From Sphingomonas sp. (GTDB taxonomy: Bacteria > Pseudomonadota > Alphaproteobacteria > Sphingomonadales > Sphingomonadaceae), in assembly GCA_019635535.1 (NCBI GenBank), contig JAHBZH010000001.1, positions 2,260,995 to 2,324,994 on the forward strand: a DNA stretch of 64,000 nucleotides, written 5' to 3'. The position numbers were made by a program, and so were the translations under genes. Position 1 is the stretch's first letter. Each line of letters opens with the position of its first letter. A model generated the notes under the pieces. The model worked only from the letters and a program-made list of their open reading frames with translations, ran no database searches and was not told the origin of the DNA. This document shows positions 8,290-22,086 of the stretch, piece by piece.

Positions 8290-8691
8290 TCATCGCCTCC
8301 CGCGCCACAGCCGCCAGACGCCGAGCACTGGCCAAAGCAGTTCGCCCGGCCGCTCGACGATCCGCCGCAGCCCGGCATCGGCATGGATCAGCCCGTCGCC
8401 CGTCCAGATGCCGAGATGAAGCTGCTCCGGCCCGGTCCGCAGCGTCAGCACATCGCCCGCTTCCATCGCTCGGACGGGCCGGAATCCCGCCGCGCGCAAT
8501 CCCTTCGCCAGCACCTCCGCCGATCCGCCGCGCAGCGCATAGCCGGACGGCGGATCGGCGATCCCCGCCGCCGCCGCGACCAGCCCGATGCAATCGAGCC
8601 CCGCCGCCGGATCGCGCCCCTGCGCCCGAAAGCGCACGCCGATCAGGCCGCGCGCCCGCGCGACGATCCGCGCCGCCTCACTCTTCCTCAT
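8290..8691 (-). CDS. NlpC/P60 family tail peptidase (GTA gp14-like)
   Basis: The 133-residue protein has the NlpC/P60 arrangement: nucleophile Cys in AAGLDCIGLVAAAAG and a downstream His in QLHLGIWTGDGLIHAD, with the polar third residue expected near the next strand. Proteins at this place in GTAs cut peptidoglycan peptides during DNA entry. It abuts gp15 and its 5' end overlaps the small lipoprotein gene by 14 bp. The active-site residues are intact, in keeping with a functional tail tip. Confidence 0.87.
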   Translation of the reverse strand: MRKSEAARIVARARGLIGVRFRAQGRDPAAGLDCIGLVAAAAGIADPPSGYALRGGSAEVLAKGLRAAGFRPVRAMEAGDVLTLRTGPEQLHLGIWTGDGLIHADAGLRRIVERPGELLWPVLGVWRLWRGRR

Positions 8692-8827
8692 CGTCCGCGT
8701 CTTCGGCCGGCGGCGCCTTCACCAGCTCGATCCGGCTCCCGTCGACGATCACCAGCACATGTTCGGGAATATGGGCGCAGCCGCTCGTGACGAGCGCCAG
8801 CAGCCCCGCGCAGACACGCAGTCGCAT
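8678..8827 (-). CDS. Small lipoprotein inside the GTA operon
   Basis: ATG 8827 opens a 49-codon gene. It encodes a short signal with a lipobox (LALVTSGC) and then about 30 residues ending in an acidic tail (AEDADDEEE). GGAGAAG lies just upstream as ribosome site, and the gene overlaps the gp14-like gene by 14 bp. I do not recognise the family. By position between hub and peptidase, and as a lipoprotein, it might be an immunity or superinfection-type protein or a spanin-like part, but this is inference. Confidence 0.6.
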   Translation of the reverse strand: MRLRVCAGLLALVTSGCAHIPEHVLVIVDGSRIELVKAPPAEDADDEEE

Positions 8828-8850
8828 GGGTCTTCTCCTTCGGTTGAATC

Positions 8851-8872
8851 CCCCTCCCGCTCGCGGGAGGGG
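8851..8872. repeat. CCCCTCCC/GGGAGGGG palindrome
   Basis: Two perfect 10-bp arms (CCCCTCCCGC and its complement) separated by 2 bp are followed by AGGGGTGGG. The element lies between two genes of the GTA operon. A sister copy with TT in the arm lies at 16152-16173, and degenerate copies are near 53190 and 22910. It looks like a dispersed REP-type hairpin and could attenuate transcription. Confidence 0.75.
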
Positions 8873-8889
8873 TCAGGGGTGGGCAGCCC

Positions 8890-9705
8890 TCAGCCGCCCG
8901 GATAGCGCGTCAGCAGGTCGATCCCCGGCAGGTGCGGCTCGCCGCGAAAGTTCGCCGCATTGCCGAACCGCCCGGCGCAGGTCGCCAGGCTCCGGTCGCA
9001 CCCTTCGGTAATCTCGACCAGGTCGCCGACCTCGGGCACGAAATGCGGCGGCTCCCGCAACGTCAGCAGCGTCCCCTCGCTCCGCAAGATCGCGCTCTCC
9101 AGCCCGCTGTTGCGCCCGCCGATCCAGCGCAGCCGGCCATAGCCATAGGCATTCCCCGCCGCCGCGCCCGTCACCTCGATCGCGTCCTCGTCCACTACCG
9201 CCGCGATCCGCGTCAGCCGCGTGCGCGGCGCCATGTCGATCCGGCAGCGCGCGTCGCCCAGCATCGCCCGGCATTCCGGCGAGGTCTGCTCGACCACCGG
9301 CCGGTCCAGCATTGCGGCCGGCCCCTTCAGCTCCGCCTCGAAGCTCTCGCCCTCGGTCGAAACCTCGCCCAGCACCCCGCGCGCGATCTCCAGCCGCTCC
9401 ACGCCCGGCGCCTCCCAGTCCGTCATGAAGACCGCCACCGCCGCCCCGTCCCAGCGCCCGGCGGCAAGATCGCCGGCCCGGATCGCGTCGCTGGTCAGCG
9501 CGCCCTTCACGTCCAGCGCGTCGGCCGCGAACCCGTCCGACAGCGTGATCGCCGACGGCAGCATCCCCGGCGCCGCGCGATAGACCAGCCCGTCAACCAC
9601 CAGATCGCGGTCGTGCGCCGTGAACCCGATCGCCACCCCGTCCCGTCGCTCGAGCCGCCAGCACAGGGCGAAGCTGATCAGGTCCCGCGCCAGAAAATCC
9701 GCCAT
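8890..9705 (-). CDS. DUF2163 baseplate hub protein (GTA gp13-like)
   Basis: The 271-residue protein has the DUF2163 layout: LCWRLERRDGVAIGFTAHDRDL near the N terminus, FEAELKGP in the middle, and the C-terminal cysteine-bearing segments SPECRAMLGDARCRID and GCDRSLATCAGRFGN. In Rhodobacter GTA the equivalent hub protein binds an iron-sulfur cluster through four cysteines, and four are present here. It follows the gp12-like gene after about 58 bp that hold a REP-like hairpin. ATG 9705 is preferred over GTG 9711; both share the GGTGGG ribosome site. Confidence 0.87.
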   Translation of the reverse strand: MADFLARDLISFALCWRLERRDGVAIGFTAHDRDLVVDGLVYRAAPGMLPSAITLSDGFAADALDVKGALTSDAIRAGDLAAGRWDGAAVAVFMTDWEAPGVERLEIARGVLGEVSTEGESFEAELKGPAAMLDRPVVEQTSPECRAMLGDARCRIDMAPRTRLTRIAAVVDEDAIEVTGAAAGNAYGYGRLRWIGGRNSGLESAILRSEGTLLTLREPPHFVPEVGDLVEITEGCDRSLATCAGRFGNAANFRGEPHLPGIDLLTRYPGG

Positions 9706-9722
9706 ATCCACCCACCATCGTC

Positions 9723-9742
9723 ATTCCCGCGCACGCGGGAAT
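9723..9742. repeat. ATTCCCGCG hairpin, REP-like
   Basis: A perfect 9-bp inverted repeat with a 2-bp loop lies in the short space between the gp12-like and gp13-like genes. The surrounding words (GTCATTCCCGCG, GGGAATCCAG) match a common dispersed intergenic repeat of proteobacteria. Confidence 0.7.
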
Positions 9743-9763
9743 CCAGCTCTCTTGAAAGAGCGA

Positions 9764-12037
9764 TCAGCTTTCCCGAATCTCGATCAACGGCACGGACGGA
9801 ATCTCTCCCGCCGCGAAGGTGGCGCGGCTCACGCTCAGGCGGTCCTCGGCGAAGCGTACCGGCACGTCGAAGCGGAAACCCGCCGTCACCGCCGCACCGT
9901 CGGCCGGCGGCTCGGCGAAGCTCACCACGCCTCCTTCGCCCAGCGCCCAGCCGCTCATCCGCTCCACACCGTCCACCGCGACCCGCACGCTTCCCGCCAC
10001 CGGCCGCGTGATCCGCCGCTCCTGCCCGCCATAATGCTTGATCAGCGCGAAGTCGGTCCGCGCTCCGTCGCCCGTCCCGATCGCTTGATCAGTGGCCTCA
10101 GCTTCGCCCGTCATCCCGTTGGAACTATTGTCGAAAGGATCTTCGAACCGAAAGCCCACAGCCGCCCCGCGCCGCGCCCGGAAGAAAGCGATCAGCGTGT
10201 GCAAATCGGCCTCGCCCCGCACGCCCGGCCCGGCATCGAAGCGCAGCCGCGCATCGGCCCATTCCGCGTTGCGCTGCTCCGCCCCGCTTGCCGTCGTCGC
10301 GATCGCGGTCGAGAAAGCCGGCTCCACGCTCGCCTCGCGCCCCAGGCTGATGGGAAAACGCACATCGTCGAAAGCGTCCACGTCCTTGTCTCCGATTTCA
10401 AACCAGGTGAACCCGTCGCGCAGCACCTGCGGCAGCGCCCAGAAGAACGTCTCCGCCGTCCCCCGCCGGCGCGCCGCTTCGGCCGCCGCTGCAATGGCGT
10501 GCCACTGGCCGCGATCCTCCGCGTTCAGCACGAAGCCGGCCAGATAATGCTGCTCGGCGACCGGATAGCCGAGCCGCGCTTCCATCTCGGCCACCGCCGG
10601 CCCCGTCGCGCCGGAGCGCCCGGCGGTGATCCAGTCATAATCCTCGAGCTGGAGCACATCGAAGGCCGGCGACGCCCAGCCAAGCGGCACATTCGCCCGC
10701 TTCACCTCTTCGCCCTCCAGCACGGTCGGCAGAAAGACGAGCAGCAATATCTCGGCATCCTCGTCCACTTCCCGCACCGCATCGCACAAGGCCGCGGTCG
10801 AGGCCGCCAGCACGGCCCCCGCCGCGTCCAGCGTAGCGATCTGCGCCGCATCGAGCGCCCCGCGCACGTCCGCGATCGCCACCGGATCGAACGCCGCCAC
10901 CGCCGCGTCGTCATAAAGGCAGATGCGCCCCTCACCCGTCACCCACCACCAGGGCTCGCCGACCTGGAACCGCACGCGCTGCCCTGCCGCCACGGCCAGC
11001 CCCGCAAAGGCCGTCGCCACGTCCCGCAACCACCCCATCGCCGCCTCATTGGCCGGCGACAGCAGGGCCGAGGGCGGCTCCCACCCGGTCAGCGCCGGGT
11101 TGCCCTCCCCGTCCCGCTGCTTCCACGCCTCCGGGCAATGCGCGTCGAGCAGTTCGTAGCTCAGCGACAGGATCGCCTCGAACCCCAGCGTCTTCGCCCG
11201 CGCCAGGAAATCCGCATGCCAGGCCGCGCAGGGCGCGTTCAGCGCGCCGGTCACCTTCAGGGCACCGTCGAGCCGGAAATAATGGCTCATGCCGACATAA
11301 TGATTGATGAGCCCGCGATAGCCGAGCCGCAGCACATTGTGCAGCATCCGCTCCGGCGTCAGGTGATAGAGATCGTCATAGCCCGTCGCGATCCGCAGCT
11401 CATGCTCCGGCACGATCGTGTCGCCGATCGCCAGCACCGATCCGGAGCCGTCGCAGGCGATGCCCTGCATCTCCGCCCAGCCCTCGGCCGGCGCCGGCAA
11501 CATCTCGTCGGTATCGGTGTAGCCGGGCGGCACCAGCGAGATGAACATCCGGTCCACATCGCCCGCCCACACCGGATCGTCCTTGTCCCACCCCCCGGCC
11601 AGCGCCGCGAAGTCGAGGCTCACCGCCGCATCCTCCGGCGATCCTTGCGCATAATTCCACAGCCGCACGAACCAGCTCCGCGCCGCCCCGCTCGCGTCCC
11701 GCCCCTCGATGGTCAAGGTCGGCCCGTGCACCGCATCCAGCGGCACCAGCCCGCCCGACCGCCAGCGAAAGGACAGCCGGCACCGCCTGAAGTCCCTGTC
11801 CGTCCGATATTTCAGCAGCGGATGATCCCACCGATCCTCCGCGTCCCAGATCAGCCCCGCCAGATCGTCCGCCTTGTAGAACACCGCCTCGATCCGAAGC
11901 GCGTTCGGCCCGGTCGTCACCGCGCTCGCCATCATCGGCCGCGGAAAATCGACGGTCCAGTAACGCGCGTCGAACCGTTTGACGGTCCCGAGCGCTTTCG
12001 CGCTGCCGGGCGGGGCGAGCCAATGTCCCACGCTCAA
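9764..12037 (-). CDS. GTA distal tail protein: glycosidase-like N-terminal region plus DUF2460
   Basis: This 757-residue protein is the longest in the cluster. Residues from about 545 to the end match DUF2460, the whole of Rhodobacter gp12, with RFPISLGREASVEPAFSTAI and the end GFRFDVPVRFAEDRLSV. The first 530 residues are extra. They contain aromatic and acidic patches such as FQVGEPWWWVTGEG, FDVLQLEDYDWIT and ETFFWALPQVLRDGFTWFE, like the strand ends of a TIM-barrel glycosidase. Sphingomonad relatives carry similar long forms, as I recall. The start is TTG, sharing bases with the tape-measure stop (TTGA). Confidence 0.83.
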   Translation of the reverse strand: MSVGHWLAPPGSAKALGTVKRFDARYWTVDFPRPMMASAVTTGPNALRIEAVFYKADDLAGLIWDAEDRWDHPLLKYRTDRDFRRCRLSFRWRSGGLVPLDAVHGPTLTIEGRDASGAARSWFVRLWNYAQGSPEDAAVSLDFAALAGGWDKDDPVWAGDVDRMFISLVPPGYTDTDEMLPAPAEGWAEMQGIACDGSGSVLAIGDTIVPEHELRIATGYDDLYHLTPERMLHNVLRLGYRGLINHYVGMSHYFRLDGALKVTGALNAPCAAWHADFLARAKTLGFEAILSLSYELLDAHCPEAWKQRDGEGNPALTGWEPPSALLSPANEAAMGWLRDVATAFAGLAVAAGQRVRFQVGEPWWWVTGEGRICLYDDAAVAAFDPVAIADVRGALDAAQIATLDAAGAVLAASTAALCDAVREVDEDAEILLLVFLPTVLEGEEVKRANVPLGWASPAFDVLQLEDYDWITAGRSGATGPAVAEMEARLGYPVAEQHYLAGFVLNAEDRGQWHAIAAAAEAARRRGTAETFFWALPQVLRDGFTWFEIGDKDVDAFDDVRFPISLGREASVEPAFSTAIATTASGAEQRNAEWADARLRFDAGPGVRGEADLHTLIAFFRARRGAAVGFRFEDPFDNSSNGMTGEAEATDQAIGTGDGARTDFALIKHYGGQERRITRPVAGSVRVAVDGVERMSGWALGEGGVVSFAEPPADGAAVTAGFRFDVPVRFAEDRLSVSRATFAAGEIPSVPLIEIRES

Positions 12038-12600
12038 TCCTCCACCCGCATCAGCGCCGCCCTGACGGCCCGCGCCACCTGCCGGCTCGACGCCTTGAGC
12101 GCTCCCGCCGGCTCGCCCGCCGGCGCGTTGATGCTGATGCTCACCCGCACCTCGCGCGCCCCTTGGGTTCCCATCGCCTCCACCCGCCCGCTCGCGGTCG
12201 GCACGAACAGCTCCGGCCCGCGCTCGCCGACCAGATAGGGCCGCCCCGGCGCCACCGGCCCGCCGGCCGCGCGCCCCGGCAGCCCGCCGATCGCGCCGAG
12301 CAGCGCCCCGATCGTTCCGCCCAACCCCCTGCCGCCGCCCAGCAAGGCGCCGAGCCCGGTGCGGATCGAGGCGGTGGCGATCTCCGCCATCGCCGACAGC
12401 GCCACCCGCTTCAGATCCTCGAAACCCAGCCGCCCGGTCCGGAGCGCCCGCGCCAGCGCCGTCTCCAGCGCCCGCCCGGCCCGCTCCGCGCCGCCGGCCA
12501 GCGGCCCGTCCAGCTCGGCCTTCATCGCCGCCACGTCGCGCGCGAAGGCGGCGGTGTCGGCCCGCACGCCGATCACCAGCCGCTCGATTTCCTCATCCAT
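12034..12600 (-). CDS. Short tail tape-measure protein (GTA gp11-like)
   Basis: The 188-residue protein has a helical N terminus (ERLVIGVRADTAAFARDVAAM) and a glycine-rich hydrophobic centre (LGALLGGGRGLGGTIGALLGAI). It ends with the common tape-measure motif GGPVAPGRPYLVGERGPELFVP. The small size fits the short tail of GTAs (RcGTA gp11 is also about 200 residues). It overlaps the preceding chaperone gene by 8 bp and the gp12-like gene by 4 bp, so it is tightly coupled. Confidence 0.87.
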   Translation of the reverse strand: MDEEIERLVIGVRADTAAFARDVAAMKAELDGPLAGGAERAGRALETALARALRTGRLGFEDLKRVALSAMAEIATASIRTGLGALLGGGRGLGGTIGALLGAIGGLPGRAAGGPVAPGRPYLVGERGPELFVPTASGRVEAMGTQGAREVRVSISINAPAGEPAGALKASSRQVARAVRAALMRVED

Positions 12601-12781
12601 CGGGAAACATCTCCATCAGCTGCGCCAGGTCGCCTTGCGTCGCGCAAGGCTCCTCGCCGCCTGTCATCGCATTCAGCACCGCCGTCAGCTCCGCCGGCGT
12701 CGCCGCCCAGAACTCGTCCGGCCGCCAGCCCAGCAAGACGCCGGCCAGGCCCGCCAGCCGCGCCGCGCTTTCGCTAAACAC
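12593..12781 (-). CDS. GTA tail assembly chaperone, small (gp10.1-type, DUF2376)
   Basis: The 62-residue protein from GTG 12781 reads LLGWRPDEFWAATPAELTAVL, the hallmark of the rcc01693/phage tail assembly chaperone family. It overlaps genes on both sides by 8 bp. It is expected to bind the tape measure during tail assembly together with the gene before it. The length is normal for the family. Confidence 0.85.
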   Translation of the reverse strand: MFSESAARLAGLAGVLLGWRPDEFWAATPAELTAVLNAMTGGEEPCATQGDLAQLMEMFPDG

Positions 12782-13091
12782 GCCCTTGCAATATCTGCGT
12801 CAGCAGCGCCTTCAGCACCGGCGTCGCCCGGACGAGCCCGCCCTCCGCCACCGCCACGCCGATCGCCTCGCGCGTGCAGCTTTCCGGCCGCTCGTGGACG
12901 CAATGCCAGAACAGGCCCGCCATCTCGGCCAGGGTCAGCCGCCCCTCCGCCGCCCGCTCGACGAGCGCGAAAAGCGGCCCCAATTCTTCCTCCGCCGCGA
13001 CCAAGGCGGAAAAGCTGGGCCGCAGCACCAGAACCGTGCCGCTCACCAGCATCGCCACCTCGCCCCGCGCCGGATTGGCCGGCCGGCTCAT
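12774..13091 (-). CDS. GTA family protein, tail tube chaperone (gp10-like)
   Basis: The 105-residue product carries NPARGEVAMLVSG and LRPSFSALVAAEEELGPLFALVERAA, which match the gene transfer agent family protein next to the major tail gene. ATG 13091 overlaps the major tail protein stop as ATGA, which fixes the start. Paired with the gene after it, this resembles the two-part tail chaperone of siphophages. Confidence 0.85.
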   Translation of the reverse strand: MSRPANPARGEVAMLVSGTVLVLRPSFSALVAAEEELGPLFALVERAAEGRLTLAEMAGLFWHCVHERPESCTREAIGVAVAEGGLVRATPVLKALLTQILQGRV

Positions 13092-13495
13092 ATCGCCGCC
13101 ACGGTGCCGGAGCTTTCCAGCGCCAGCGCATAGGTCCGCTCGCCATTGTGATCGCCGGCATAATCGAGCCGCGTCACCAGGAAGCGCCCGCGCATCCGCT
13201 CGCCGCTTTCGAAGCTCAGCTCGTACTCGTCGAGCGCCCCCGCGAGCGCATTGGTCCTGAGCCGCGTCTCCGCCGCCGAGCCGGTGAAGATCCCGCTCGC
13301 CGCCACGGAAACGGAGCGAATGCCCGCCCCGGACAGCAGCTCGCGCCAACCGCCGGAATCCTTGGACGTCACGTTCACCGCCTCGCCGTTCACCGACATC
13401 TGCGTGGTCCGCATCCCGGCCACCGTCGCATAGGCGGGCGGGTCTTCCCCGCCACTGATCTTGAGCAAGAATGCACTTCCTTTTTCGGCGCCCAT
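13088..13495 (-). CDS. Major tail tube protein, TP901-1 family (GTA gp9-like)
   Basis: The 135-residue protein has the sequence layout of TP901-1 major tail proteins. It begins GSAFLLKISGG, has the insertion-loop-type segment TTQMSVNGEAVNVTSKDSGGWRELL, and ends DYAGDHNGERTYALALESSG. It would stack as hexamers into the tail tube. The start has AAAGGAG in place. Its upstream neighbour on the plus strand begins about 47 bp away and is divergent, so a promoter for the tail half of the cluster may lie here. Confidence 0.87.
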   Translation of the reverse strand: MGAEKGSAFLLKISGGEDPPAYATVAGMRTTQMSVNGEAVNVTSKDSGGWRELLSGAGIRSVSVAASGIFTGSAAETRLRTNALAGALDEYELSFESGERMRGRFLVTRLDYAGDHNGERTYALALESSGTVAAI

Positions 13496-13542
13496 GGCGC
13501 AATCTCCTTTCCGTCAAGCAAATGAAAAATTTGGGGGTTCGG

Positions 13543-13929
13543 ATGCTTTCAATTCTGCTTGCGCTCGCCGCGATGGGGCAGACCGAGGCGATCAACACCG
13601 CCCGTCAGGGCTATTCGAGTTGCCTGCGCCAATATTTGAACGAGAGCATGGAGCAGAACGTGGCTCCCGATGCTTTCGAGCGGGGCATTGGCGCCCAGTG
13701 CACCAGTCAGGCCACCTCCTTCCGCGAGGCGTTGATCCAGCGCGATGTCCGCGCCGGCGGCGGTCGTGCGCGCGCCGAAGAGGATGCGCGGATCACGATG
13801 GAAGACCTGCGCGCCAATTTCATCGAGATGTATCGCGACGAAATGGGCGCCGCGGCCCCGCAGGCCCAGGCGTCGAGCGAGCCGCAAACCGAAGAACCTC
13901 AGGCCGACGCGCCCGAAACGCCGCAATAG
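13543..13929 (+). CDS. Small exported protein inserted in the GTA cluster on the opposite strand
   Basis: From ATG 13543 this encodes 128 residues: a signal peptide (MLSILLALAAMGQTEA), then a helical domain with two cysteines (SSCLRQYL, GAQCTSQATSF), and a Pro/Gln/Glu-rich tail. I recall similar unnamed periplasmic proteins in sphingomonads, but no function. GGGGG sits 5 bp before this start; ATG 13522 in the same frame would add a basic segment and is the alternative. It is convergent with the tail terminator gene and divergent from the major tail gene. Confidence 0.7.
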   Translation: MLSILLALAAMGQTEAINTARQGYSSCLRQYLNESMEQNVAPDAFERGIGAQCTSQATSFREALIQRDVRAGGGRARAEEDARITMEDLRANFIEMYRDEMGAAAPQAQASSEPQTEEPQADAPETPQ

Positions 13930-13938
13930 CTCCACCGG

Positions 13939-14328
13939 TCAGCCCTCGATCGCCAGCATGCGGGCGCGATAGTCGATCGTGCCGATCCAGCCGTCGCGCC
14001 CGTCCGGAACGATCCGCATGCGCAGGAAGGCCAGGCTGACGATCCGCCAGCCACCCGTCGCCATGTCCGGTCCGGCCATTGCCGCCTCGGCCGCCGCGAT
14101 CAGCCGCCGCAACCGCTCAGGCCGTTCGCCCTTGTCGCGGATCGCGATGGCGAGCCGGACCTCGCGTCCCGCGCCGGTCTTGTGGCTCCAGTCCGCTTCC
14201 GCGCCGGCGTCCACCGTCGCATAGGGGTGCGCCGCCTGCCACGGCCGGGCGTCGAAGATTCCGCTGAGCCCGGCGATCCCGGCCAGTTTCGCCGTCGCCG
14301 CCTTGGCCAGCGCCTCACCCGCGCTCAT
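13939..14328 (-). CDS. DUF3168 tail terminator (GTA gp8-like)
   Basis: The 129-residue protein shows the DUF3168 pattern: AHPYATVDAGAEADWSHKTGAGREVRLAIAIRDKGERPERLRRLIAAAEAAM in parts, with the strand-rich end GTIDYRARMLA. Tail terminators cap the tube and bind the connector. It overlaps the preceding 71-codon gene as ATGA. Its stop is 9 bp from the stop of the plus-strand exported-protein gene, so the two are convergent. Confidence 0.87.
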   Translation of the reverse strand: MSAGEALAKAATAKLAGIAGLSGIFDARPWQAAHPYATVDAGAEADWSHKTGAGREVRLAIAIRDKGERPERLRRLIAAAEAAMAGPDMATGGWRIVSLAFLRMRIVPDGRDGWIGTIDYRARMLAIEG

Positions 14329-14540
14329 CGCAATGCTCCCATCGTCAGCCAGCGCAGGGCCGGATCGAGCGCGAAGCGCCGGGCGAGCCCGCGCCCGGCA
14401 ATCCGCACGCCGTCCGGCCCGGCCTCGGTCTGGACGCCCGGCGACGCCTGCGCGGCCAGCCGCGCCGCGATCTTACGCGTGCGTTCGTCGGCTTTCTCGC
14501 GCGCGCGCCTGTCGGCATGCGCGCTCAGTTTCTCGAACAT
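14325..14540 (-). CDS. Small GTA connector-region protein (gp7 position)
   Basis: The 71-residue basic protein has a helical first half rich in Arg/Ala/Glu and ends GRGLARRFALDPALRWLTMGA. It lies between the DUF3168 gene (ATGA overlap) and the head-tail connector gene (6-bp gap), where RcGTA has its stopper gene. I recognise it only by position and by similar small proteins in sphingomonad clusters. It is shorter than the RcGTA stopper. Confidence 0.7.
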   Translation of the reverse strand: MFEKLSAHADRRAREKADERTRKIAARLAAQASPGVQTEAGPDGVRIAGRGLARRFALDPALRWLTMGALR

Positions 14541-14546
14541 CCTTGC

Positions 14547-15086
14547 TTATCCCATTCTCAGCCGGCGCCAGGGCCGCCACAGGGCCGTGACCGATGCCGG
14601 CGGCGGCAGGGCGCCCGGCCCGTTCGCCTCGCGATGCGCGTGGAGATGCGCCGCCAGCCGCACGATCCCCTGACGGATCGCCTCCGGCAGGTCGGCAGCG
14701 TCTTCCGCCAGCCCGGCGCGGTAACCGACGCGCACCCGCCCGGCCGCGATCGGCCCGGTCAGCCGCACCCAGCCTTCGCCCGCCGCGTCGATGTCGATCG
14801 CATAGGCATCGGTCGGCAGCGGTTCGGCCGTGCCGTCCGCCGCGACCGTCTCGATCGCCCGCACCGGCGCCGACGCCAGCCGCGTCCAGCCGCGCGGGGC
14901 CGGGATCGTCTCCTCGACGGTGCGGGCGACGAGCAACCGCCCGAGAAACGCCTCGCAGACCGCCGCCGCACCGCGGATCAGCCCCGCCAGGATCGCGTCC
15001 TCGGCGCTGCCCTCGATCCGCAGCCAGGCTCTGAGCTCGCCGATCGGCACGGGGATCGGCCCCGCCTCGGTCGCCGGCAGGGTCAT
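14547..15086 (-). CDS. Head-tail connector protein (GTA gp6-like)
   Basis: The 179-residue protein matches the phage gp6-like connector family: IGELRAWLRIEGSAEDAILAGLIRGAAAVCEAFLGRLL at its helical N terminus, then beta strands and the C-terminal helix LPEAIRQGIVRLAAHLHAHRE. It would sit under the portal. ATG 15086 shares a base with the stop of the adaptor gene (TGATG), so translation is coupled. It is intact even though its portal partner is lost. Confidence 0.85.
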   Translation of the reverse strand: MTLPATEAGPIPVPIGELRAWLRIEGSAEDAILAGLIRGAAAVCEAFLGRLLVARTVEETIPAPRGWTRLASAPVRAIETVAADGTAEPLPTDAYAIDIDAAGEGWVRLTGPIAAGRVRVGYRAGLAEDAADLPEAIRQGIVRLAAHLHAHREANGPGALPPPASVTALWRPWRRLRMG

Positions 15087-15364
15087 CACCTCTCCTCCAC
15101 GCGCAGCGTGATCGATCGCTCGTCCACGCTGCCGTCGGACATCGTCACCCGGTTGGCGACACTGTAGACGCGCCCCGCCAGCCCGCCCGCGATGCGCGCG
15201 GCGCTGCGATTGAGGTCGAAGCTCGCCGCCTCCACCACGATGCCGCCGGCTTCGTCCGGCGTCGCCGACCATATGCTTTCGGCGATCGCCTGCCCGTCCA
15301 TGTAGCCGCCCCAGTCGATCGCATAATCGACCCGCGATTGCGGGTCCTTCAGATAGAAGCCCAT
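15086..15364 (-). CDS. Phage fibre-tail adaptor-type protein
   Basis: The 92-residue protein begins with KDPQSRVDYAIDWGGYMDG and ends in DERSITLRVEE, the pattern of small immunoglobulin-like phage fibre-tail adaptor proteins. AAGGAG precedes the ATG. It is coupled to the connector gene by a one-base overlap. It probably forms part of the neck or head decoration of the particle, by analogy only. Confidence 0.75.
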   Translation of the reverse strand: MGFYLKDPQSRVDYAIDWGGYMDGQAIAESIWSATPDEAGGIVVEAASFDLNRSAARIAGGLAGRVYSVANRVTMSDGSVDERSITLRVEER

Positions 15365-15380
15365 TGCCCCGCTCCTTCAT

Positions 15381-15530
15381 TCATGGCCGCGTCGCCCGCG
15401 CGTCGCGCGGATCCGCCGCGATCCGGTTCGTCTCGGATGTCCCGGCCGGCCTGGGGCCGGTCTGCTCGCTCGCCAGCACGCGCCGTCCCGCCGCGCCGAT
15501 CGCGCGCGCCGCGATGGCCGCGCCCAGCAT
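15381..15530 (-). CDS. Small hypothetical protein in the GTA remnant region
   Basis: A 49-codon frame starts at ATG 15530, sharing one base with the stop of the fibre-like fragment (TGATG), and ends 16 bp before the adaptor gene. The product has a short hydrophobic start (MLGAAIAARAIGAAGRRVL) and then a basic, polar remainder. I do not recognise it. The coupling arrangement is the only support that it is translated. Confidence 0.45.
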   Translation of the reverse strand: MLGAAIAARAIGAAGRRVLASEQTGPRPAGTSETNRIAADPRDARATRP

Positions 15531-16146
15531 CACGAAACCCCCGCGCCGGAGACGATCGCCTCGGTCGTGCCGTTGAACCAGATCGTCGCGAAGCCGCGTG
15601 CCGCCAGCGTTCGGTTGCCGGTCGTGCCGGTTCCGGCGAGCCGCAGCGTGAGGCCGCTGCCCTGCGTGATCGTGATCGCCGATCCGCTGTCGTTGTAGAT
15701 CGAATAGGTGCTGCCCGCCGCCGCGCCGGTGTTGAGCGTGACGCCGCTGCTGGCCGCATGGCATTTGCCCCGCTCGATCCCGCCCGTCACGCGCGGAATG
15801 TCGCGATAGCCCAGTTCGAGACTGCCTTCGGCGAGCACGATACCGGCGAAAGTCGCCTGTGTCGCCGTGAACTGGAACAGCCAGCCGTCATCAGTGGCAT
15901 TGACCGCGCCAAAATTGTTCGACTGTCCGACGATTGTGAGCATGTTGTTGTTGGAGCCGTCCCGCACGTTGATCTGGCCCTGCGAGGAGCCGCGCAGCAC
16001 GATCTTCTGGTTCTGCGCTCGATCAACGGTAATCGCGCCGCTGAACGTACGCCCCGCGCGAGGCTCCGCGCGAACGCCCCGGCTCGCACCACGTCCCCGC
16101 CCCGGTCCGGATGTCCGAACACGGCCGCATAACCGGCGAACCGCAT
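15530..16146 (-). pseudogene. Prohead protease 5' fragment joined to a fibre-like 3' fragment
   Basis: From ATG 16146 the frame reads MRFAGYAAVFGHPDRGGDV and VRAGAFARSLARG, the N terminus of an HK97-type prohead protease. At about 16055 the homology stops. The other frame takes over there (TFSGAITVDRAQNQKIVLRG onward), giving about 170 residues of repetitive phage structural protein ending FATIWFNGTTEAIVSGAGVS at 15530. The protease frame itself continues as nonsense to a stop at 15787. The protease body and its catalytic residues, the major capsid gene and the start of the fibre gene are therefore missing. This reads as one deletion with an out-of-frame join. Confidence 0.75.
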
Positions 16147-16151
16147 CACCT

Positions 16152-16173
16152 CCCCTCCCTTTCAAGGGAGGGG
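16152..16173. repeat. CCCCTCCC/GGGAGGGG palindrome, second copy
   Basis: Arms CCCCTCCCTT and AAGGGAGGGG are separated by 2 bp and followed by AGGGGTGGG, the same element as at 8851-8872. It sits just upstream of the protease remnant, next to the deletion-scarred region. That leaves open whether repeats of this family took part in the rearrangement. Confidence 0.75.
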
Positions 16174-16215
16174 ATCGAGGGGTGGGTGGCGAGCGCAGCG
16201 AGCCCTCGGCCTCGC

Positions 16216-16566
16216 CTACCCACGCAGCATCTCCAGCAGCCCGGCCCGGAGCGCGATCCCCGCCACCAGCAGCGCCAGCGCGATCCGCACCAGCCAACTC
16301 ACCACCGCCTCGCGCGCCGATCGCTTCGCGTCGCGCCAGGCCCGCAGCAATTCGCGCAGCTCGTCCATGTCGCGCCGCGCATTGTCGTCGGTCAGCCCGA
16401 TCGCGGCGAGCGCGCGCTGCGCGATCGGATTGCCGAGATAAGCCTCCCGCACCCGCGCCTCGTAGGAACGCGGCCAGGGCTCCCCGCTTACGCCGGCACC
16501 CCATCCGCCAAACAGAAAAGGCCGCCCGGCATCCCGGGCGGCCTTGCGGCCGAACCACCATTTCAT
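16216..16566 (-). pseudogene. Portal protein remnant fused in frame to DUF6127
   Basis: From ATG 16566 the first 52 or so residues (MKWWFGRKAARDAGRPFLFG, then YEARVREAYLGNPIAQRA) are the start of an HK97-family portal protein. The next residues (LAAIGLTDDNARRDMDELRE, then a membrane helix VRIALALLVAGIALRAGLLE) are a DUF6127 protein, which in sphingomonad GTAs follows the portal gene. The join is in frame and gives a 116-residue open product. The portal normally has about 400 residues, so almost all of it is gone. The fused product might still supply the DUF6127 part. Confidence 0.75.
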
Positions 16567-16691
16567 GCGTCTCTCCATGATCGCCGGCGCTTGCCGGAAT
16601 TTTCCCCCGCATCGCCGCCCCACCGGAACGACGCGCGGTCTAAATCGTTGAATCCGAACCCTTAACCCCCCGTAACGAGGAGCCTATCGTC

Positions 16692-17069
16692 ATGGCCTAC
16701 GACACCGTCGATCGCACCGTCGCGCGCAGCGAAACCACCGATCTCATCGCCTCCGACAAGGTCGAAGGCACCAATGTCTATAACCGCGACGGCGAGAAGC
16801 TCGGCTCGGTCAGGAACTTCATGGTCGGCAAGCGCAGCGGCCGCGTCGATTACGCGGTGATGAGCTTCGGCGGCCTGTTCGGCCTGGGCGAGCGTTACTA
16901 TCCGCTCCCCTGGGACACGCTCGATTACGACACCGACCGGGGCGGCTATGTCGTCGACATCGACAAGCAGCGCCTCGAAGGCGCGCCCTGGTACGAGCCC
17001 GGCAAGGAGCCGACCTACGACCGCGTCTACGGCGAGCGTGTGTACGGCTATTATGGCGTGCCTTTTTAA
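16692..17069 (+). CDS. PRC-barrel domain protein
   Basis: The 125-residue soluble protein has a PRC-barrel core: LIASDKVEGTNVYNRDGEKLGSV, then GRVDYAVMSFGGLFGLGERYYPLPWD and GGYVVDIDKQRLEGAPWY, with a tyrosine-rich tail. Such proteins often accompany stress or envelope functions, with no known enzyme activity. GAGGAG lies upstream of the ATG. It is plus-strand between two minus-strand GTA genes (TerL and the portal remnant), where it splits the head operon. Confidence 0.85.
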   Translation: MAYDTVDRTVARSETTDLIASDKVEGTNVYNRDGEKLGSVRNFMVGKRSGRVDYAVMSFGGLFGLGERYYPLPWDTLDYDTDRGGYVVDIDKQRLEGAPWYEPGKEPTYDRVYGERVYGYYGVPF

Positions 17070-17080
17070 GACGTGGCCGT

Positions 17081-17128
17081 CCCGACAATAGCGCCGCGGA
17101 CGCGAAGCGGCGCCGAAGCTATTGTCGG
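17081..17128. terminator. Long inverted repeat after the PRC-barrel gene
   Basis: Outer arms CCGACAATAGC (17082-17092) and GCTATTGTCGG (17118-17128) enclose inner arms GCGCCGC and GCGGCGC. The hairpin begins about 12 bp after the PRC-barrel stop. It lacks a strong T-run, so it is a possible factor-dependent or bidirectional terminator. Confidence 0.55.
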
Positions 17129-17182
17129 AGTCGGCCCGTCCGGCCGGCGGGTCGGGCGGTTAAACCCGCCCGAACCCGTTCG

Positions 17183-17210
17183 ACGTCACGGCACAATGGT
17201 GCCGTGACGT
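17183..17210. terminator. Perfect 12-bp hairpin downstream of terL
   Basis: ACGTCACGGCAC and its exact complement are separated by AATG, 9 bp beyond the terL stop (minus-strand reading). It is strong enough to be a transcription stop or an operator. No T-run follows, so the terminator label is tentative. Confidence 0.55.
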
Positions 17211-17219
17211 TCGGGCCGA

Positions 17220-18527
17220 TCACAACCCCCGCACCCTCGGCGCCCGCGCCTTGCCCAACAGCAACTCCGCCATCGCCCAGACCATCGCATCGGCCCGGTC
17301 CGGCGACCGCCCCGGCCCCTCATAACCCGCCACGGTCATCCCGCAGAGCTGGTCCTCCAGCTCGGGAAAACCGCCCGCGAACAACGCTTTGCCCGCCTCG
17401 AAGCGCAGCGCCACCGGCTCGGCCCGCAGTCCCTTGCCGAACCGCGCCGTCACCGGCCGCACCGGCAAGGCGCAATCCACGCCGCGGAGCATTGCCTCGA
17501 CCATCTCGCCGCCCTGATTGGTCTCGACCACCACCCGGTCCGCCTCCCACAGCTCGGCGGCGCGCACCACGGCCCGCGCCCAGCCCTCGGGGCTCAGTCC
17601 TTCGACGCTGCAATCGTCCAGAACATAGCCGATGCCGTCCGCGCCCAAAGCGCAGGCGACGATGCCGCAGCCGCCCCCGCCCGCCGGCGGATCGACCCCG
17701 ATCACCACCCGGCGCCGCGTCGCGGGGGCGGTGGCGCGCCTCTTCTCGATCAGCGCGCGCGTCCACAGCGCCCCGTCCGCCTCCTCGATCAGCTCCCCGT
17801 CCAGCTCCTGCCGGCCCAGCCGCGTGCCGCCGTACAGATCGGTCATCGCCGCCACGAAATCGTCCGGCAGGTACGCATTGTCCGCGGTGCGCCCGCCGGT
17901 CCCTGCCGTGTCGGGGCTCTCCTTCAGCGTGCGGATCAGGGCGATCGGCCGGGGCGTCGTCGTCACCAGCACCCGCGCCTCCTCGCCCAGCCTGAGGCCC
18001 AGCAACAGATTCGTCCAGGTCGCCTCGGGATAGGCCCATTTGGCCAGCTCGTCGCACCAGGCGATATGATGCTCCGGCCCGCGCAGCCCGTCGGGATTGG
18101 CGCCCGAATAGGCGAAGGCCCGTGCCCCGCTCGGAAATTCCAGCAGCCCGCGCGTCCGGTACCAGGGCAGTTCCTCATCGAACCGCGCGACCGCCTTCAG
18201 CCCGCTTTCGCCCCGGATCATCACCCGTTCGACCTCGTCGATCGTCGCGCCGACCAGGGCGATCCTCAGGTCCCCGTCGGCCCGCGCCAGCGCGCTCACC
18301 CATTCCGCGCCGGCCCGGGTCTTGCCGAAGCCGCGCCCGGCGAGCATCAGCCACACCCGCCAGCCGCCCTCGGGCGGCAGCTGGCCGTCATGGGCCAGGA
18401 TCTCCCACGCCTCGCCGAAGGCGCGCTTCTCCGGATCGGTCAGCCGCGCGGCGACCCAGGCCCGCTCTTCCGGCGCGCGCCGCGCGAGCGCGTGGATCGC
18501 GGCGCGCAGCGCCTCCGCTTCGCTCAC
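17220..18527 (-). CDS. Large terminase subunit (GTA gp2-like)
   Basis: The 435-residue DNA-packaging motor protein has a Walker A-type loop (LMLAGRGFGKTRAGAEWV), Walker B (HHIAWCDELAKW), the coupling motif VTTTPRP, and a C-terminal RNase H-like nuclease domain (RRVVIGVDPPAGG, then SPDRADAMVWAMAELL). GTG 18527 overlaps the small terminase stop as GTGA, which fixes the start. All catalytic segments are present. The enzyme therefore looks intact although the portal it needs for packaging is missing from this locus. Confidence 0.92.
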   Translation of the reverse strand: MSEAEALRAAIHALARRAPEERAWVAARLTDPEKRAFGEAWEILAHDGQLPPEGGWRVWLMLAGRGFGKTRAGAEWVSALARADGDLRIALVGATIDEVERVMIRGESGLKAVARFDEELPWYRTRGLLEFPSGARAFAYSGANPDGLRGPEHHIAWCDELAKWAYPEATWTNLLLGLRLGEEARVLVTTTPRPIALIRTLKESPDTAGTGGRTADNAYLPDDFVAAMTDLYGGTRLGRQELDGELIEEADGALWTRALIEKRRATAPATRRRVVIGVDPPAGGGGCGIVACALGADGIGYVLDDCSVEGLSPEGWARAVVRAAELWEADRVVVETNQGGEMVEAMLRGVDCALPVRPVTARFGKGLRAEPVALRFEAGKALFAGGFPELEDQLCGMTVAGYEGPGRSPDRADAMVWAMAELLLGKARAPRVRGL

Positions 18528-19063
18528 TTGCTTTGCCTCGCCAGCCGGCGGTCCAGCGCGTCGAGCAGGCGCAGGATCGCCGCGGTGAGCTCCGCCTTGC
18601 TCGCGCGGCGGAGCCGGGCGCCCCGGCGCGGCGCGCGGCCCGCCCGGCCCGGCCATGGCCGGCTGAGCACCTTGAGCGCCAGTTCGGGATCGAATGTCGC
18701 GATGTCTCCCGGCGGCGTTTCGCCGGGCTCGACCGGGGCCGTCCGCCCTCCCGTCGCGGCATAGCGCACGGCCATCTCCTCCAGCCGCAGCAAGGCGACC
18801 GCGTGCGCCTCGTCATACTGCCGGGCGAAATCGGGATCGCGGCGGCGCAGCTGATAGGCGGCGCCCTCGTACATGCCGGCGGCGCGGCAGGCCTCGCCGG
18901 CATTGGCGCTGGCCGCGTAATGATCGAGGAAGATTTCGCGCCGTTTGGCGCTCCACCCGTCCTTGCGCACCTTGCGCACCTGCCGCCCGGCCTTCCCGCC
19001 CGACACGAATGTCTCTTGTGCCTCTTGTGCGCCTTGTATCGCTTGCGCCCCGTCCCGATCCAT
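18524..19063 (-). CDS. Small terminase-like DNA-binding protein (GTA gp1 position)
   Basis: The 179-residue protein has a helix-turn-helix-like section (WSAKRREIFLDHYAASANAGEACRAAGM) and a C-terminal helical part (ASKAELTAAILRLLDALDRRL) that runs into terL by 4 bp. I take it as the small terminase of the cluster. ATG 19063 has a strong GGAGGAG site. An early Gln/Ala segment is encoded by CTTGTG-type repeats. It is the first gene of the cluster, and the transposon lies 90 bp upstream. Confidence 0.78.
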   Translation of the reverse strand: MDRDGAQAIQGAQEAQETFVSGGKAGRQVRKVRKDGWSAKRREIFLDHYAASANAGEACRAAGMYEGAAYQLRRRDPDFARQYDEAHAVALLRLEEMAVRYAATGGRTAPVEPGETPPGDIATFDPELALKVLSRPWPGRAGRAPRRGARLRRASKAELTAAILRLLDALDRRLARQSK

Positions 19064-19113: not shown

Positions 19114-19152
19114 TCGGCGAATCGGCACATGTGTCCAGCTTGTGCGTCTTGT

Positions 19153-19174
19153 GGCGAATGTGCACTTGACATAC
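19153..19174 (+). repeat. Left terminal inverted repeat of the IS1595 element
   Basis: Twenty-two bases beginning GGCGAATGTGCACTT, identical to the complement of 21961-21982 except for one G/A difference at the sixteenth position. Confidence 0.95.
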
Positions 19175-19201
19175 CATGCGAGAGCGGGGTAGTCAGAGGG
19201 C

Positions 19202-20128
19202 ATGACAAAGCTAACCGACCCTATTTTCACCAATGAGGATGCAGCCCGCGCTCACTTTGAGGCGATCCGCTGGCCCGATGGTCGCATCTGCCCGCATTGC
19301 GGATCGGTCGATAATTCACACCTCATGCAGGGTAAGAGCACTCGCCCCGGCCTCTATAAATGCCGCGACTGCCGTAAGCCGTTCACCGCCACCATCGGGA
19401 CGATCTATGAGCGGTCGCATATCCCTTTGCACAAGTGGTTGCTCGCCACCCATCTTATTGTGGCCAGCAAGAAGGGCATGAGCGCAAAGCAGTTAGAGCG
19501 GATGCTTGGTTTCGGTTCCTACCGGACCGCATGGTTCATGGCGCACCGTATCCGCGAAGCGATGAAGCCGACTGACAACAGCCCTATGGGCGGTGACGGC
19601 GGCGCCGTGGAAGCCGATGAAACCTACATTGGCCGCAAGAAGGGCAAGGATGCCGCCGTCGCTGGAAACGCTCACAAGATGGCGGTGCTGTCGCTGGTCG
19701 AGCGCAATACCGGCCAGGTTCGCTCCTTCACGATCGAGAACACCCGCGCCGATGAAATCCACCCGATCATCCTGTCCAACATCGCCCGCGAAGCCCGTCT
19801 AATGACGGATGAGGCCCGCATGTATTGGAAGATCGGCAAGGGCTTCGCCGCCCATGGTCGCACCCTTCACGGTCGCGGTGAATATGTTCGCGGCGACATT
19901 CATTCCAACACCGTCGAGGGCTTCTTCTCTATCTTCAAGCGCGGGATGCGCGGCATCTACCAGCATTGCGGTCAGCACTATTTGAGCCGGTATCTGACCG
20001 AGTTCGATTTCCGCTACTGCTACCGTGAAGCCAATGGCTTTAACGACGCTGATCGGGCCAAGGTCGCCATTCAGGGTGCGGTCGGTCGCCGCCTGACCTG
20101 CCAACAACCTCACCAGCGGGCGTCCTGA
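19202..20128 (+). CDS. IS1595-family transposase
   Basis: The 308-residue transposase has an N-terminal zinc ribbon (Cys30, Cys33, Cys54, Cys57) typical of the ISXO2-like group. The catalytic ISXO2 domain follows: first Asp in VEADETYIGRKK (Asp139), second Asp in LMTDEARMYWK (Asp203), and HSNTVEGFFSIFKRGMRGIYQH, which gives the Asn236, Glu239 and Lys246 positions of the family. The frame is complete with no stop or shift, so the enzyme may be active. It starts 28 bp inside the left inverted repeat. Confidence 0.95.
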   Translation: MTKLTDPIFTNEDAARAHFEAIRWPDGRICPHCGSVDNSHLMQGKSTRPGLYKCRDCRKPFTATIGTIYERSHIPLHKWLLATHLIVASKKGMSAKQLERMLGFGSYRTAWFMAHRIREAMKPTDNSPMGGDGGAVEADETYIGRKKGKDAAVAGNAHKMAVLSLVERNTGQVRSFTIENTRADEIHPIILSNIAREARLMTDEARMYWKIGKGFAAHGRTLHGRGEYVRGDIHSNTVEGFFSIFKRGMRGIYQHCGQHYLSRYLTEFDFRYCYREANGFNDADRAKVAIQGAVGRRLTCQQPHQRAS

Positions 20129-20172
20129 AACGGCCAAGCCGGGACGGAGGCCCCGTAATCAGCGGTGGCGCA

Positions 20173-20289
20173 CTAAGTCTTAGCTTTCGCCTTCTTGGGT
20201 TGTGGTGGGGTGGCAAGCATACGCTTGACCACTTCGTCACGACGGCGCGCTATTTCCACTTCCTCATGTTTTTTGTTCGCCTCGTTCAT
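20173..20289 (-). CDS. 38-residue passenger protein
   Basis: ATG 20289, with AAGGGATAAGG before it, starts a charged helical peptide (MNEANKKHEEVEIARRRDEV) ending PPQPKKAKAKT. It overlaps the end of the HNH gene by 26 bp in another frame, so it is translationally coupled. I recall short proteins with the RRRDE...TPPQPKK pattern beside IS1595-type elements in other proteobacteria, but none with a known function. It may be a partner or regulator of the HNH protein or of the transposase. Confidence 0.6.
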   Translation of the reverse strand: MNEANKKHEEVEIARRRDEVVKRMLATPPQPKKAKAKT

Positions 20290-21862
20290 CCTTATCCCTT
20301 TCACTATTGCACCGCGGATGGACCCACCGGCGATTGCCCTTACCAGACGAGCCGCCATCGGCACGTTTAACCGAATGATCTAAGGTCTTTCCGTTGCGAT
20401 GCAAAAGGCCACCGCAGAGTGCGCATCGCGGGACTGAAGCAAGATCGGCAAACGTCGCGGCGCTCTTGGCCTTACCTGTAAATTTGGCGCCAGCCTGTGC
20501 GCCTTCTCCTTCCTCAGCCTGCTCCCGTTCGTCCGACGCCAGATGCGGAAATTCATTCTGGAGCATATTCCAGGTTCTACCTGCAGCCCACTCCGGCCCT
20601 CTGCCTGAGTTCGCCTCCAACAGACCAAGCACCTTATTGAACAAGGCGAGCATTCTCTTACGGGTGCGCGCGCCGCTGCCGAGCTTGTGCGTAGCCGGTT
20701 TCACAATAACAGGGTGGGCTAGGAGTAGTGTCTCGAAGGCGCCTCTCTGCTTTCGGAAAACATCCAGCCTTCCCTCCTTTTCCAGATCATCCAACCACGC
20801 GATCATGTTGAGCAAGGCTGCTGGCTGGAAAGAGCCACCCGCCGTGTAGAAATACAAAGCGGGATGAAGACCTAATGACGATTTATGATTCGACAAGATT
20901 AAACGTAGCTTACGCAAAGTGATATGAAGATACTTGACGGTGTCTTCTCCGCTAATGTCGTCAGGCGGCGGCTTATCAGCCGTACTTGCACTTCTGCGCG
21001 TTGAATCCGGTACAGGGATATTATTGGTAAGTGCGACCAAGTCGAAGGCCAACCTCACTACACCCAAATTATATTCGGAACCGGCGAGCGGGACATCCAT
21101 AGTCTTGATCGGAGTTTCGAGGGGCGGGTGAAACAGCAAATCATAAATCTCAGCGCCGAGCTTCGGAACGCGTTCGCGCGCGGCGGCGTCCGTGAAATGC
21201 TGCCAATATGAATGGCCTCCGCCACCGCGGGTAATGGCCCTAGTGGTGACTGATAACGCAGCCCGAGGAGCACGAACAATTCGGACCTCTAGAGCGTCTA
21301 TTTCTGTGCCACCTCTGTTGATGCGGATAAACGCTTCGGCGACCTGCTGAGGCTCCCGATTTTCAATCCACTGCGCATCAAGTCCCTTCACCATAAAGGC
21401 GCTGTTCGTGGCCCGAAACTTCTCCCATGGCCCCACGCTGCCAGCCACCAACTCGCGCGTTTTGTCGTGCATGGCGCGCTGGTGGGAAGAGATTGTGCGG
21501 AAGTAGCTTTGAGACATAACGCCCGCCCCGTAGTCATCTCTCACCCATGCTACCAAAGCACTCAGTCGATGAGCACCATCCACTACAAAAATATGCGGTC
21601 CGTTCTGCCACAAGATCATCGAAGGGATGAGATCTTGCTCAGCAAAAGTTTGGATGAGAATTGCCACTTGCTGAGGTGACCAGTTAGCTGTTTCTCGCTG
21701 AAAGTCAGGCTTTCGCAGCATGTCATAAATTGCGCTGTCTGTCTGAAGGTCGCTAATACGGATGGCGTGTGTCTTGCCAGTCACGGTGCTGGCTGGGCTG
21801 AGAAGATCGGCACGCTGAATGAGTGCGTCGAGGTTCACTACATTGCGACTTGAGCTAGCCAT
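20264..21862 (-). CDS. DUF262/ParB-like plus HNH protein, transposon cargo
   Basis: The 532-residue protein begins with a DUF262-type domain: FQRETANWSPQQVAILIQTF, then VVDGAHRLSALVAW (DGAHR at 95-99, the nucleotide-binding signature) and FIRINRGGTEIDALEVRIVR. It ends with an HNH zinc-ribbon nuclease motif: CALCGG (480-485), LDHSVKRADGG and HPRCNSER. This is the GmrSD-like plan (nucleotide-sensing plus HNH nuclease) of type IV restriction systems. ATG 21862 has GAGGAG upstream; ATG 21943 in the same frame is less well supported. Its base composition is visibly more A/T-rich than its neighbours. Confidence 0.82.
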   Translation of the reverse strand: MASSSRNVVNLDALIQRADLLSPASTVTGKTHAIRISDLQTDSAIYDMLRKPDFQRETANWSPQQVAILIQTFAEQDLIPSMILWQNGPHIFVVDGAHRLSALVAWVRDDYGAGVMSQSYFRTISSHQRAMHDKTRELVAGSVGPWEKFRATNSAFMVKGLDAQWIENREPQQVAEAFIRINRGGTEIDALEVRIVRAPRAALSVTTRAITRGGGGHSYWQHFTDAAARERVPKLGAEIYDLLFHPPLETPIKTMDVPLAGSEYNLGVVRLAFDLVALTNNIPVPDSTRRSASTADKPPPDDISGEDTVKYLHITLRKLRLILSNHKSSLGLHPALYFYTAGGSFQPAALLNMIAWLDDLEKEGRLDVFRKQRGAFETLLLAHPVIVKPATHKLGSGARTRKRMLALFNKVLGLLEANSGRGPEWAAGRTWNMLQNEFPHLASDEREQAEEGEGAQAGAKFTGKAKSAATFADLASVPRCALCGGLLHRNGKTLDHSVKRADGGSSGKGNRRWVHPRCNSERDKDERGEQKT

Positions 21863-21960
21863 ATCATCCCACTCCTCTGTGGGATGCTGCGCACCAAGGG
21901 GAAGACTTGTAAAGTCCCGTTCCAGCGGTCCCATGGTTTTCACCTAGCAGGTCCGCTTGA

Positions 21961-21982
21961 GTATGTTAAGTGCACATTCGCC
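21961..21982 (-). repeat. Right terminal inverted repeat of the IS1595 element
   Basis: The complement of 19153-19174 with one difference. CGTCTTGT follows directly outside. Confidence 0.95.
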
Positions 21983-22059
21983 CGTCTTGTGCCATATCAG
22001 CGCATCGCTGTCAAGCTATTTTTACCGATTTGGTTATTATATTTTCACCCACCCTTGCC

Positions 22060-22086
22060 CGTTCGGGCTGAGCCTGTCGAAGCCCT
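22060..22086. repeat. REP-like GTTCGGGCTGAGC repeat, single arm
   Basis: CGTTCGGGCTGAGCCTGTCG and a few more bases (AAGCCCT) match the arms of the paired repeats at 35535-35618 and 45667-45755. Only one arm is present. It lies in the 3' region of the antitoxin gene. Confidence 0.8.

Follow-up and report, generated by a model that had tools for sequence, protein, structure and literature searches.

A complete cargo-bearing IS1595-type transposon

The stretch of Sphingomonas sp. DNA analysed here (the window, 64,000 nucleotides) contains a complete, cargo-bearing IS1595-type transposon that occupies 2,830 bp at positions 19153–21982 (Table 1). As originally predicted, the element has terminal inverted repeats that are complementary at 21 of 22 bp, an exact 8-bp target duplication and an intact transposase. 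The transposase matches PF12762 (E = 6e-35), PF12760 (E = 2e-13) and NF033547 (189 bits; cut-off 75), and its catalytic and zinc-binding residues are conserved across 43 aligned sequences (alignment A1). The element thus carries the DDE_Tnp_IS1595 catalytic domain, N-terminal zinc ribbon, 8-bp duplication and inverted repeats of the IS1595 family, together with the hallmark of a transporter insertion sequence (tIS), namely a passenger gene within the inverted repeats of a unit that is missing from empty sites. In a scan for paired inverted repeats and target duplications it scored 35, compared with a maximum of 27 in 44 flanking stretches (threshold 30), so the ends and duplication are beyond chance. 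The sequence TTGACA at 19167–19172, inside the left repeat, is a possible −35 box for the transposase, and the GC content of the element is 56% compared with 68% in its flanks.

Table 1 Features of the element and of its insertion site (positions in the window)
Feature	Position	Strand	Basis or remark
Large terminase subunit	17220..18656	-	PF03237 and PF17289
Putative small terminase subunit, gene-transfer-agent-like cluster	18524..19063	-	Element inserted about 90 bp from its start codon
Left 8-bp target duplication, CGTCTTGT	19145..19152	.	Sequence and inverted-repeat/duplication scan
Left terminal inverted repeat (IRL)	19153..19174	+	Consensus of inverted repeats over 127 elements, GGCGATTATATACTTGACAAACCA
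IS1595-family transposase, 308 aa, zinc ribbon and DDE domain	19202..20128	+	Pfam and profile NF033547
38-aa accessory protein, family II (DEVVKRMLATPPQPKK)	20173..20289	-	ORF and family profiles
DUF262 (GmrSD_N)-HNH nuclease-like cargo, longest ORF 559 aa	20264..21943	-	PF03235 above cut-off, PF01844 (HNH) below
Right terminal inverted repeat (IRR)	21961..21982	-	Inward TTAACA at 21968-21963
Right 8-bp target duplication, CGTCTTGT	21983..21990	.	Identical to left duplication
TTGACA of interrupted promoter-like motif TTGACAgcgatgcgctgatatggc, directly upstream of target site	22009..22014	-	Conserved at other terminase-promoter insertions

Two congeners (G137 and G299) have an empty site in which the sequences flanking 19152 and 21983 form one uninterrupted alignment with a single copy of the target region, and neither transposase nor cargo is present. 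A relative with the cargo at this place but without the transposase was looked for and not found. The insertion had been called recent and probably mobile: potential mobility stands, but recency is not supported, as the duplication is exact yet the element is single-copy in its own genome, with no close copy there, and the closest transposase found is only 70% identical.

The prediction of a nuclease-like, defence-like cargo agrees with the domain matches, from which the defence role is read. Alignment of relatives suggests that Met28 (about 21862), a conserved start, is more likely to be the true start than that of the longest ORF. The relatives conserve the DUF262 motifs QR (82–83), DGAHR (122–126; general form D-G-x-H-R) and FxxxN (205–209), as well as the zinc-HNH residues C507, C510, H523, N537, H542, C545 and N546. 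No Pfam match to DUF1524 was found at the C terminus, where there is a weak match to PF01844 instead, so we treat the cargo as GmrSD-like in its working rather than as an established GmrSD protein. A structure model (mean pLDDT 75.8) gave no significant whole-chain fold match with Foldseek; its hits were to an HNH nickase at the C terminus and weakly to ParB proteins, the best having an E value of 0.33. A scan of the genome contigs with the nuclease alone gave no match. For the type IV system TgvAB, changes to the DGQQR motif or to residues of the nuclease are reported to abolish the anti-phage effect (PMC11411939). The window cargo is probably a virus-fighting enzyme. Three further delimited elements carry DUF262-HNH cargo: L122 (Sphingomonas montanisoli), L196 and L234. 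Homologues also exist without a transposon, for example on Burkholderia glumae plasmids (L009 and L010), where the gene lies beside, and divergent from, a CBASS-type DncV-ThiF-JAB operon.

A clade of single-copy, loaded elements

Searching 298 genomes of the host's order with the transposase (E ≤ 1e-60) identified 52 places in 47 genomes. The transposase almost always occurs once per genome; where one genome has several places they hold different elements, and no genome examined contained two similar copies. Elements were delimited by scanning for matching ends with 8-bp duplications, a procedure that would miss decayed copies. This yielded 43 elements in the host's order. Another 86, of which 83 have exact duplications, came from 166 loci in other genomes, plasmids and viral contigs. 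Two of the 86 equal two of the 43, leaving 127 different elements among 129.

All 129 elements bear cargo. They measure 1.8–5.9 kb; the transposase occupies the left end, followed by 0.8–4.9 kb of DNA to its right, and none is naked. A divergent IS1595 element in the host's family (33% identity) is naked, 1,150 bp long and present in more than 20 copies; naked, multi-copy forms would therefore be picked up, and they sit in other branches. Cargo is also found in some further divergent branches. Among these, four more distant elements (L301–L304) have a different small motif, MPFxEALERFxxxDPDEL, which in L302 and L304 lies at the N terminus of the cargo protein. Two loci (L080, 6654–11580; L061, 1605–4857) contain paired clade elements back to back with one 8-bp duplication in common, as though the first element's end had served as the exact insertion point of the second.

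Cargo is diverse and exchanged

Recognisable cargo consists mostly of nucleases, DNA methylases and toxin–antitoxin-like or abortive-infection-like genes. Pfam assigned the 127 main cargo proteins to DUF3800 (17), GmrSD_N/DUF262 (7) and SocA-Panacea (6), as well as to DNA methylases, DUF4145/HEPN-like, HNH, Mrr, Abi_2, AIPR and other families; more than half had no Pfam family. PIN-domain, PemK, ParE and GIY-YIG proteins were found in individual elements. PADLOC matches include NsnA, PD-T4-2, PD-Lambda-5 and type II enzymes, although the comparison with flanking genes is not clean, as generic ATPase and helicase models match those control genes too.

Cargo varies among relatives, as the original prediction had proposed to check, even between closely similar backbones. 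L044, L045, L047 and L119 share 84–90% DNA identity over the left ~1.03 kb, beyond which their cargo genes differ and only the block encoding the small protein described below and the right end are held in common; three of the four have the same target duplication. On the transposase tree, cargo clusters of at least three members require nearly as many changes as they have members. DUF262-HNH cargo requires four changes for four rows; the type of small protein is clustered instead.

These data bear on whether the clade consists of ordinary tIS whose passenger genes were captured without selection and have no defence role. IS1595 elements with passenger genes, such as tISCpe8 and MTnSag1, have indeed been described (PMC5704250), but every element here is loaded, the same cargo classes recur independently across the transposase tree and no clearly metabolic family is among the listed Pfam matches of the 127 main cargo proteins, all of which make such unselected capture unlikely.

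A small protein associated with the transposase

The 38-codon frame of the window, MNEANKKHEEVEIARRRDEVVKRMLATPPQPKKAKAKT, belongs to one of two families of small proteins of roughly 40–60 residues (families I and II), of which it is a family II member; family I follows the pattern KFKEAARELExDDDExRFxERLxKLxKxKP. A conserved block of ~100 bp in the cargo half of the elements had been considered as a structured RNA or recombination site, and its translation revealed the small-protein gene; changes at third codon positions predominate, as expected of coding sequence. Profiles for the families matched 124 of 127 elements (62 family I, 58 family II and 4 of a variant form), and families I and II never occurred together in one element among the 127. 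Because the profiles were built from element peptides, only 59 held-out transposase loci, which were neither delimited nor used for the profiles, provide an independent test. A small protein was found within 3 kb downstream of the transposase in 57 of these 59 loci and in 0 of 43 upstream stretches.

Among the 298 genomes, 43 of 55 small-protein places (about E ≤ 1e-5) had a clade transposase or its remnant no more than ~2.5 kb away; the other 12, away from any detected transposase, may be remnants or represent another context. Flanking DNA totalling 1.23 Mb contained seven matches, of which about three fall within adjacent elements of this type. At DUF262-HNH loci without a transposase the small protein was absent in 25 of 26 cases, with one weak match, whereas all three DUF262-HNH loci with a transposase had it. 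On the transposase tree the 62 family I rows require 2 changes, compared with a mean of 42.7 after shuffling. Since the protein is present whatever the cargo, recurs in the held-out loci and is rarely found beside DUF262-HNH genes outside elements, we conclude from these sequence comparisons that it is a component of the transposon backbone rather than a partner of the nuclease.

A different possibility is that the small proteins act as broad-range antitoxins or chaperones able to neutralize any toxic cargo, and are thereby tied to cargo-bearing itself. Their near-universal presence alongside toxin-like cargo and the mutual exclusivity of the two families fit this idea, but a single family of ~45 residues would need to act on unrelated folds, and the transposase rather than the cargo predicts which family is present; we regard this explanation as improbable. 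The original prediction of a one-operon candidate defence module, and with it the view that the 38-codon gene and the nuclease form a two-gene toxin–antitoxin or defence operon incidentally aboard an IS1595 element, is largely refuted and now very doubtful: the genes do share a strand with a 26-nt overlap at the 3′ end of the cargo gene, and relatives often carry toxin–antitoxin-like cargo, but one and the same small family occurs with HEPN, HNH, methylase, GIY-YIG and DUF262 cargo, mostly encoded on the strand opposite the cargo, its type follows the transposase tree and it is almost always missing beside cargo homologues that have no transposase. The specific co-travel expected of a type II toxin–antitoxin pair was likewise not found.

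Separately, 20 of the 127 elements (including L041, L071, L083, L145 and L217) encode a third small protein (EIEITPEMIEAG) on the minus strand, immediately internal to the right end and almost only alongside family II.

Target sites and a terminase-promoter hotspot

Target duplications are AT-rich (73% AT, compared with 40% in their surroundings), and by eye many insertion sites are T-runs or the loops of terminator-like hairpins. ORFs of at least 150 codons cross 29 of 119 empty sites, an upper bound given that spurious long ORFs in GC-rich DNA blur the test. One promoter-like site upstream of a terminase gene pair is a recurrent insertion hotspot: the motif TTGACATCGTcACGCTgatatGGC, or a closely similar one, precedes the element in the window and in L044, L045, L047, L051, L063, L068 and L119, with L055 matching by sequence only. 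The target duplications mostly differ, so these insertions are mostly independent. In all, 14 elements adjoin terminase large-subunit genes that point away from them.

The palindrome AACCnnnnnGGTT lies upstream of the promoter-like motif, just before the insertion, in the window (21983–22060) and in the same seven loci (L044, L045, L047, L051, L063, L068 and L119). Insertions next to an XRE-type regulator gene (L059, L080 and L083) have a similar palindrome nearby, and three different elements are inserted beside apparent glnK-amtB genes (L074, L081 and L082).

In the window, the terminase pair belongs to a gene-transfer-agent-like cluster on the minus strand (7150–19063) that also contains DUF2460 and gene-transfer-agent-type tail genes. 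Its portal-like frame is truncated near 16216–16623, and intact portal and capsid genes were not found in the cluster. The portal family PF04860 is matched nowhere in the genome and the sole capsid match (PF05065) lies outside the window, so the cluster is probably defective.

Discussion

The window element probably belongs to a large clade of compact, cargo-carrying transposons, in which a conserved backbone with its own small protein carries exchangeable genes. The backbone comprises two 24-bp ends, a left-end transposase and a single tiny accessory protein from either family I or family II; the cargo is one or two exchangeable genes, here a putative GmrSD-like DUF262-HNH enzyme. The ParB-like DUF262 domain would most likely bind nucleotide and sense foreign or modified DNA, which the HNH domain would then most likely cut. 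The transposase would move the unit to short AT-rich sites, often terminators and promoters, and repeatedly to one promoter before a gene-transfer-agent-like terminase operon. The accessory protein would most likely act for the transposon and not for the nuclease, by influencing transposase regulation, target choice or copy number. Cargo may be retained because it protects the host or the element.

A bolder and more tentative reading, which we think possible but somewhat less likely than its opposite, is that the clade is a dedicated single-copy shuttle for immune-type genes, with families I and II as new accessory factors for copy number or target choice that enable frequent cargo replacement, and that its repeated landing in promoters of gene-transfer-agent or prophage packaging genes cuts those genes off from their promoter.

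This clade is large and little-noticed. Taken together, the transposase clade, the 24-bp ends and the tiny protein form a sequence signature that marks precisely where the cargo begins and ends, so that hundreds of uncharacterised single-gene defence or toxin candidates become directly readable. Two questions also become testable: how a one-gene transposon can replace its cargo but retain its ends and transposase, and what keeps a transposon single-copy within a genome. Landing before gene-transfer-agent terminase genes ties mobile immunity-type genes to possible silencing of virus-like particles in Alphaproteobacteria. Outside ISfinder and the founding 2009 IS1595 paper, our literature search found no work joining IS1595, cargo and a defence system, and no account of an IS1595 clade that is always loaded and encodes a conserved tiny protein. 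The obligate cargo, the backbone protein and the hotspot appear to be new, and passenger-bearing IS1595 elements are an established class, as the original prediction held.

That class is represented by tISCpe8 and MTnSag1, IS1595 transporter IS (Siguier, Gagnevin and Chandler 2009, as cited in PMC5704250). Such tIS resemble the clade in their IS1595 DDE transposase, short inverted repeats and passenger genes between the ends, but the examples named in PMC5704250 carry antibiotic-resistance or mobilisation cargo, whereas the clade has conflict-type cargo, is always loaded and single-copy, and encodes a conserved tiny backbone protein. Ordinary IS1595 elements (for example ISApl4 of the IS1016 group; PMC12561309) share the DDE transposase and AT-rich 8-bp duplications; they are naked, ~0.7–1.2 kb long and multi-copy, in contrast to the 0 naked elements in 129 found here. 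Tn7-like transposons (PMC8649781) similarly combine a backbone with exchangeable, defence-rich cargo, but they use multi-gene Tns machinery, whereas the clade has a one-gene DDE transposase in 1.8–5.9 kb, with no Tn7-type target selector seen. The window cargo resembles the type IV restriction enzymes GmrSD, TgvAB, BrxU and SspE (PMC11411939) in its N-terminal DUF262 domain with QR, DGxxR-like and FxxxN motifs, helical middle and C-terminal His-Me type nuclease, and differs in having DGAHR or DGGHR for DGQQR and a C-terminal zinc-HNH (weak PF01844) with no DUF1524 match. Finally, Rpn nucleases with an intragenic small inhibitor (PMC10327210) likewise pair a nuclease gene with a small overlapping frame, but the small frame of the window belongs to a separate, transposase-tied family and is not an internal start of the nuclease.
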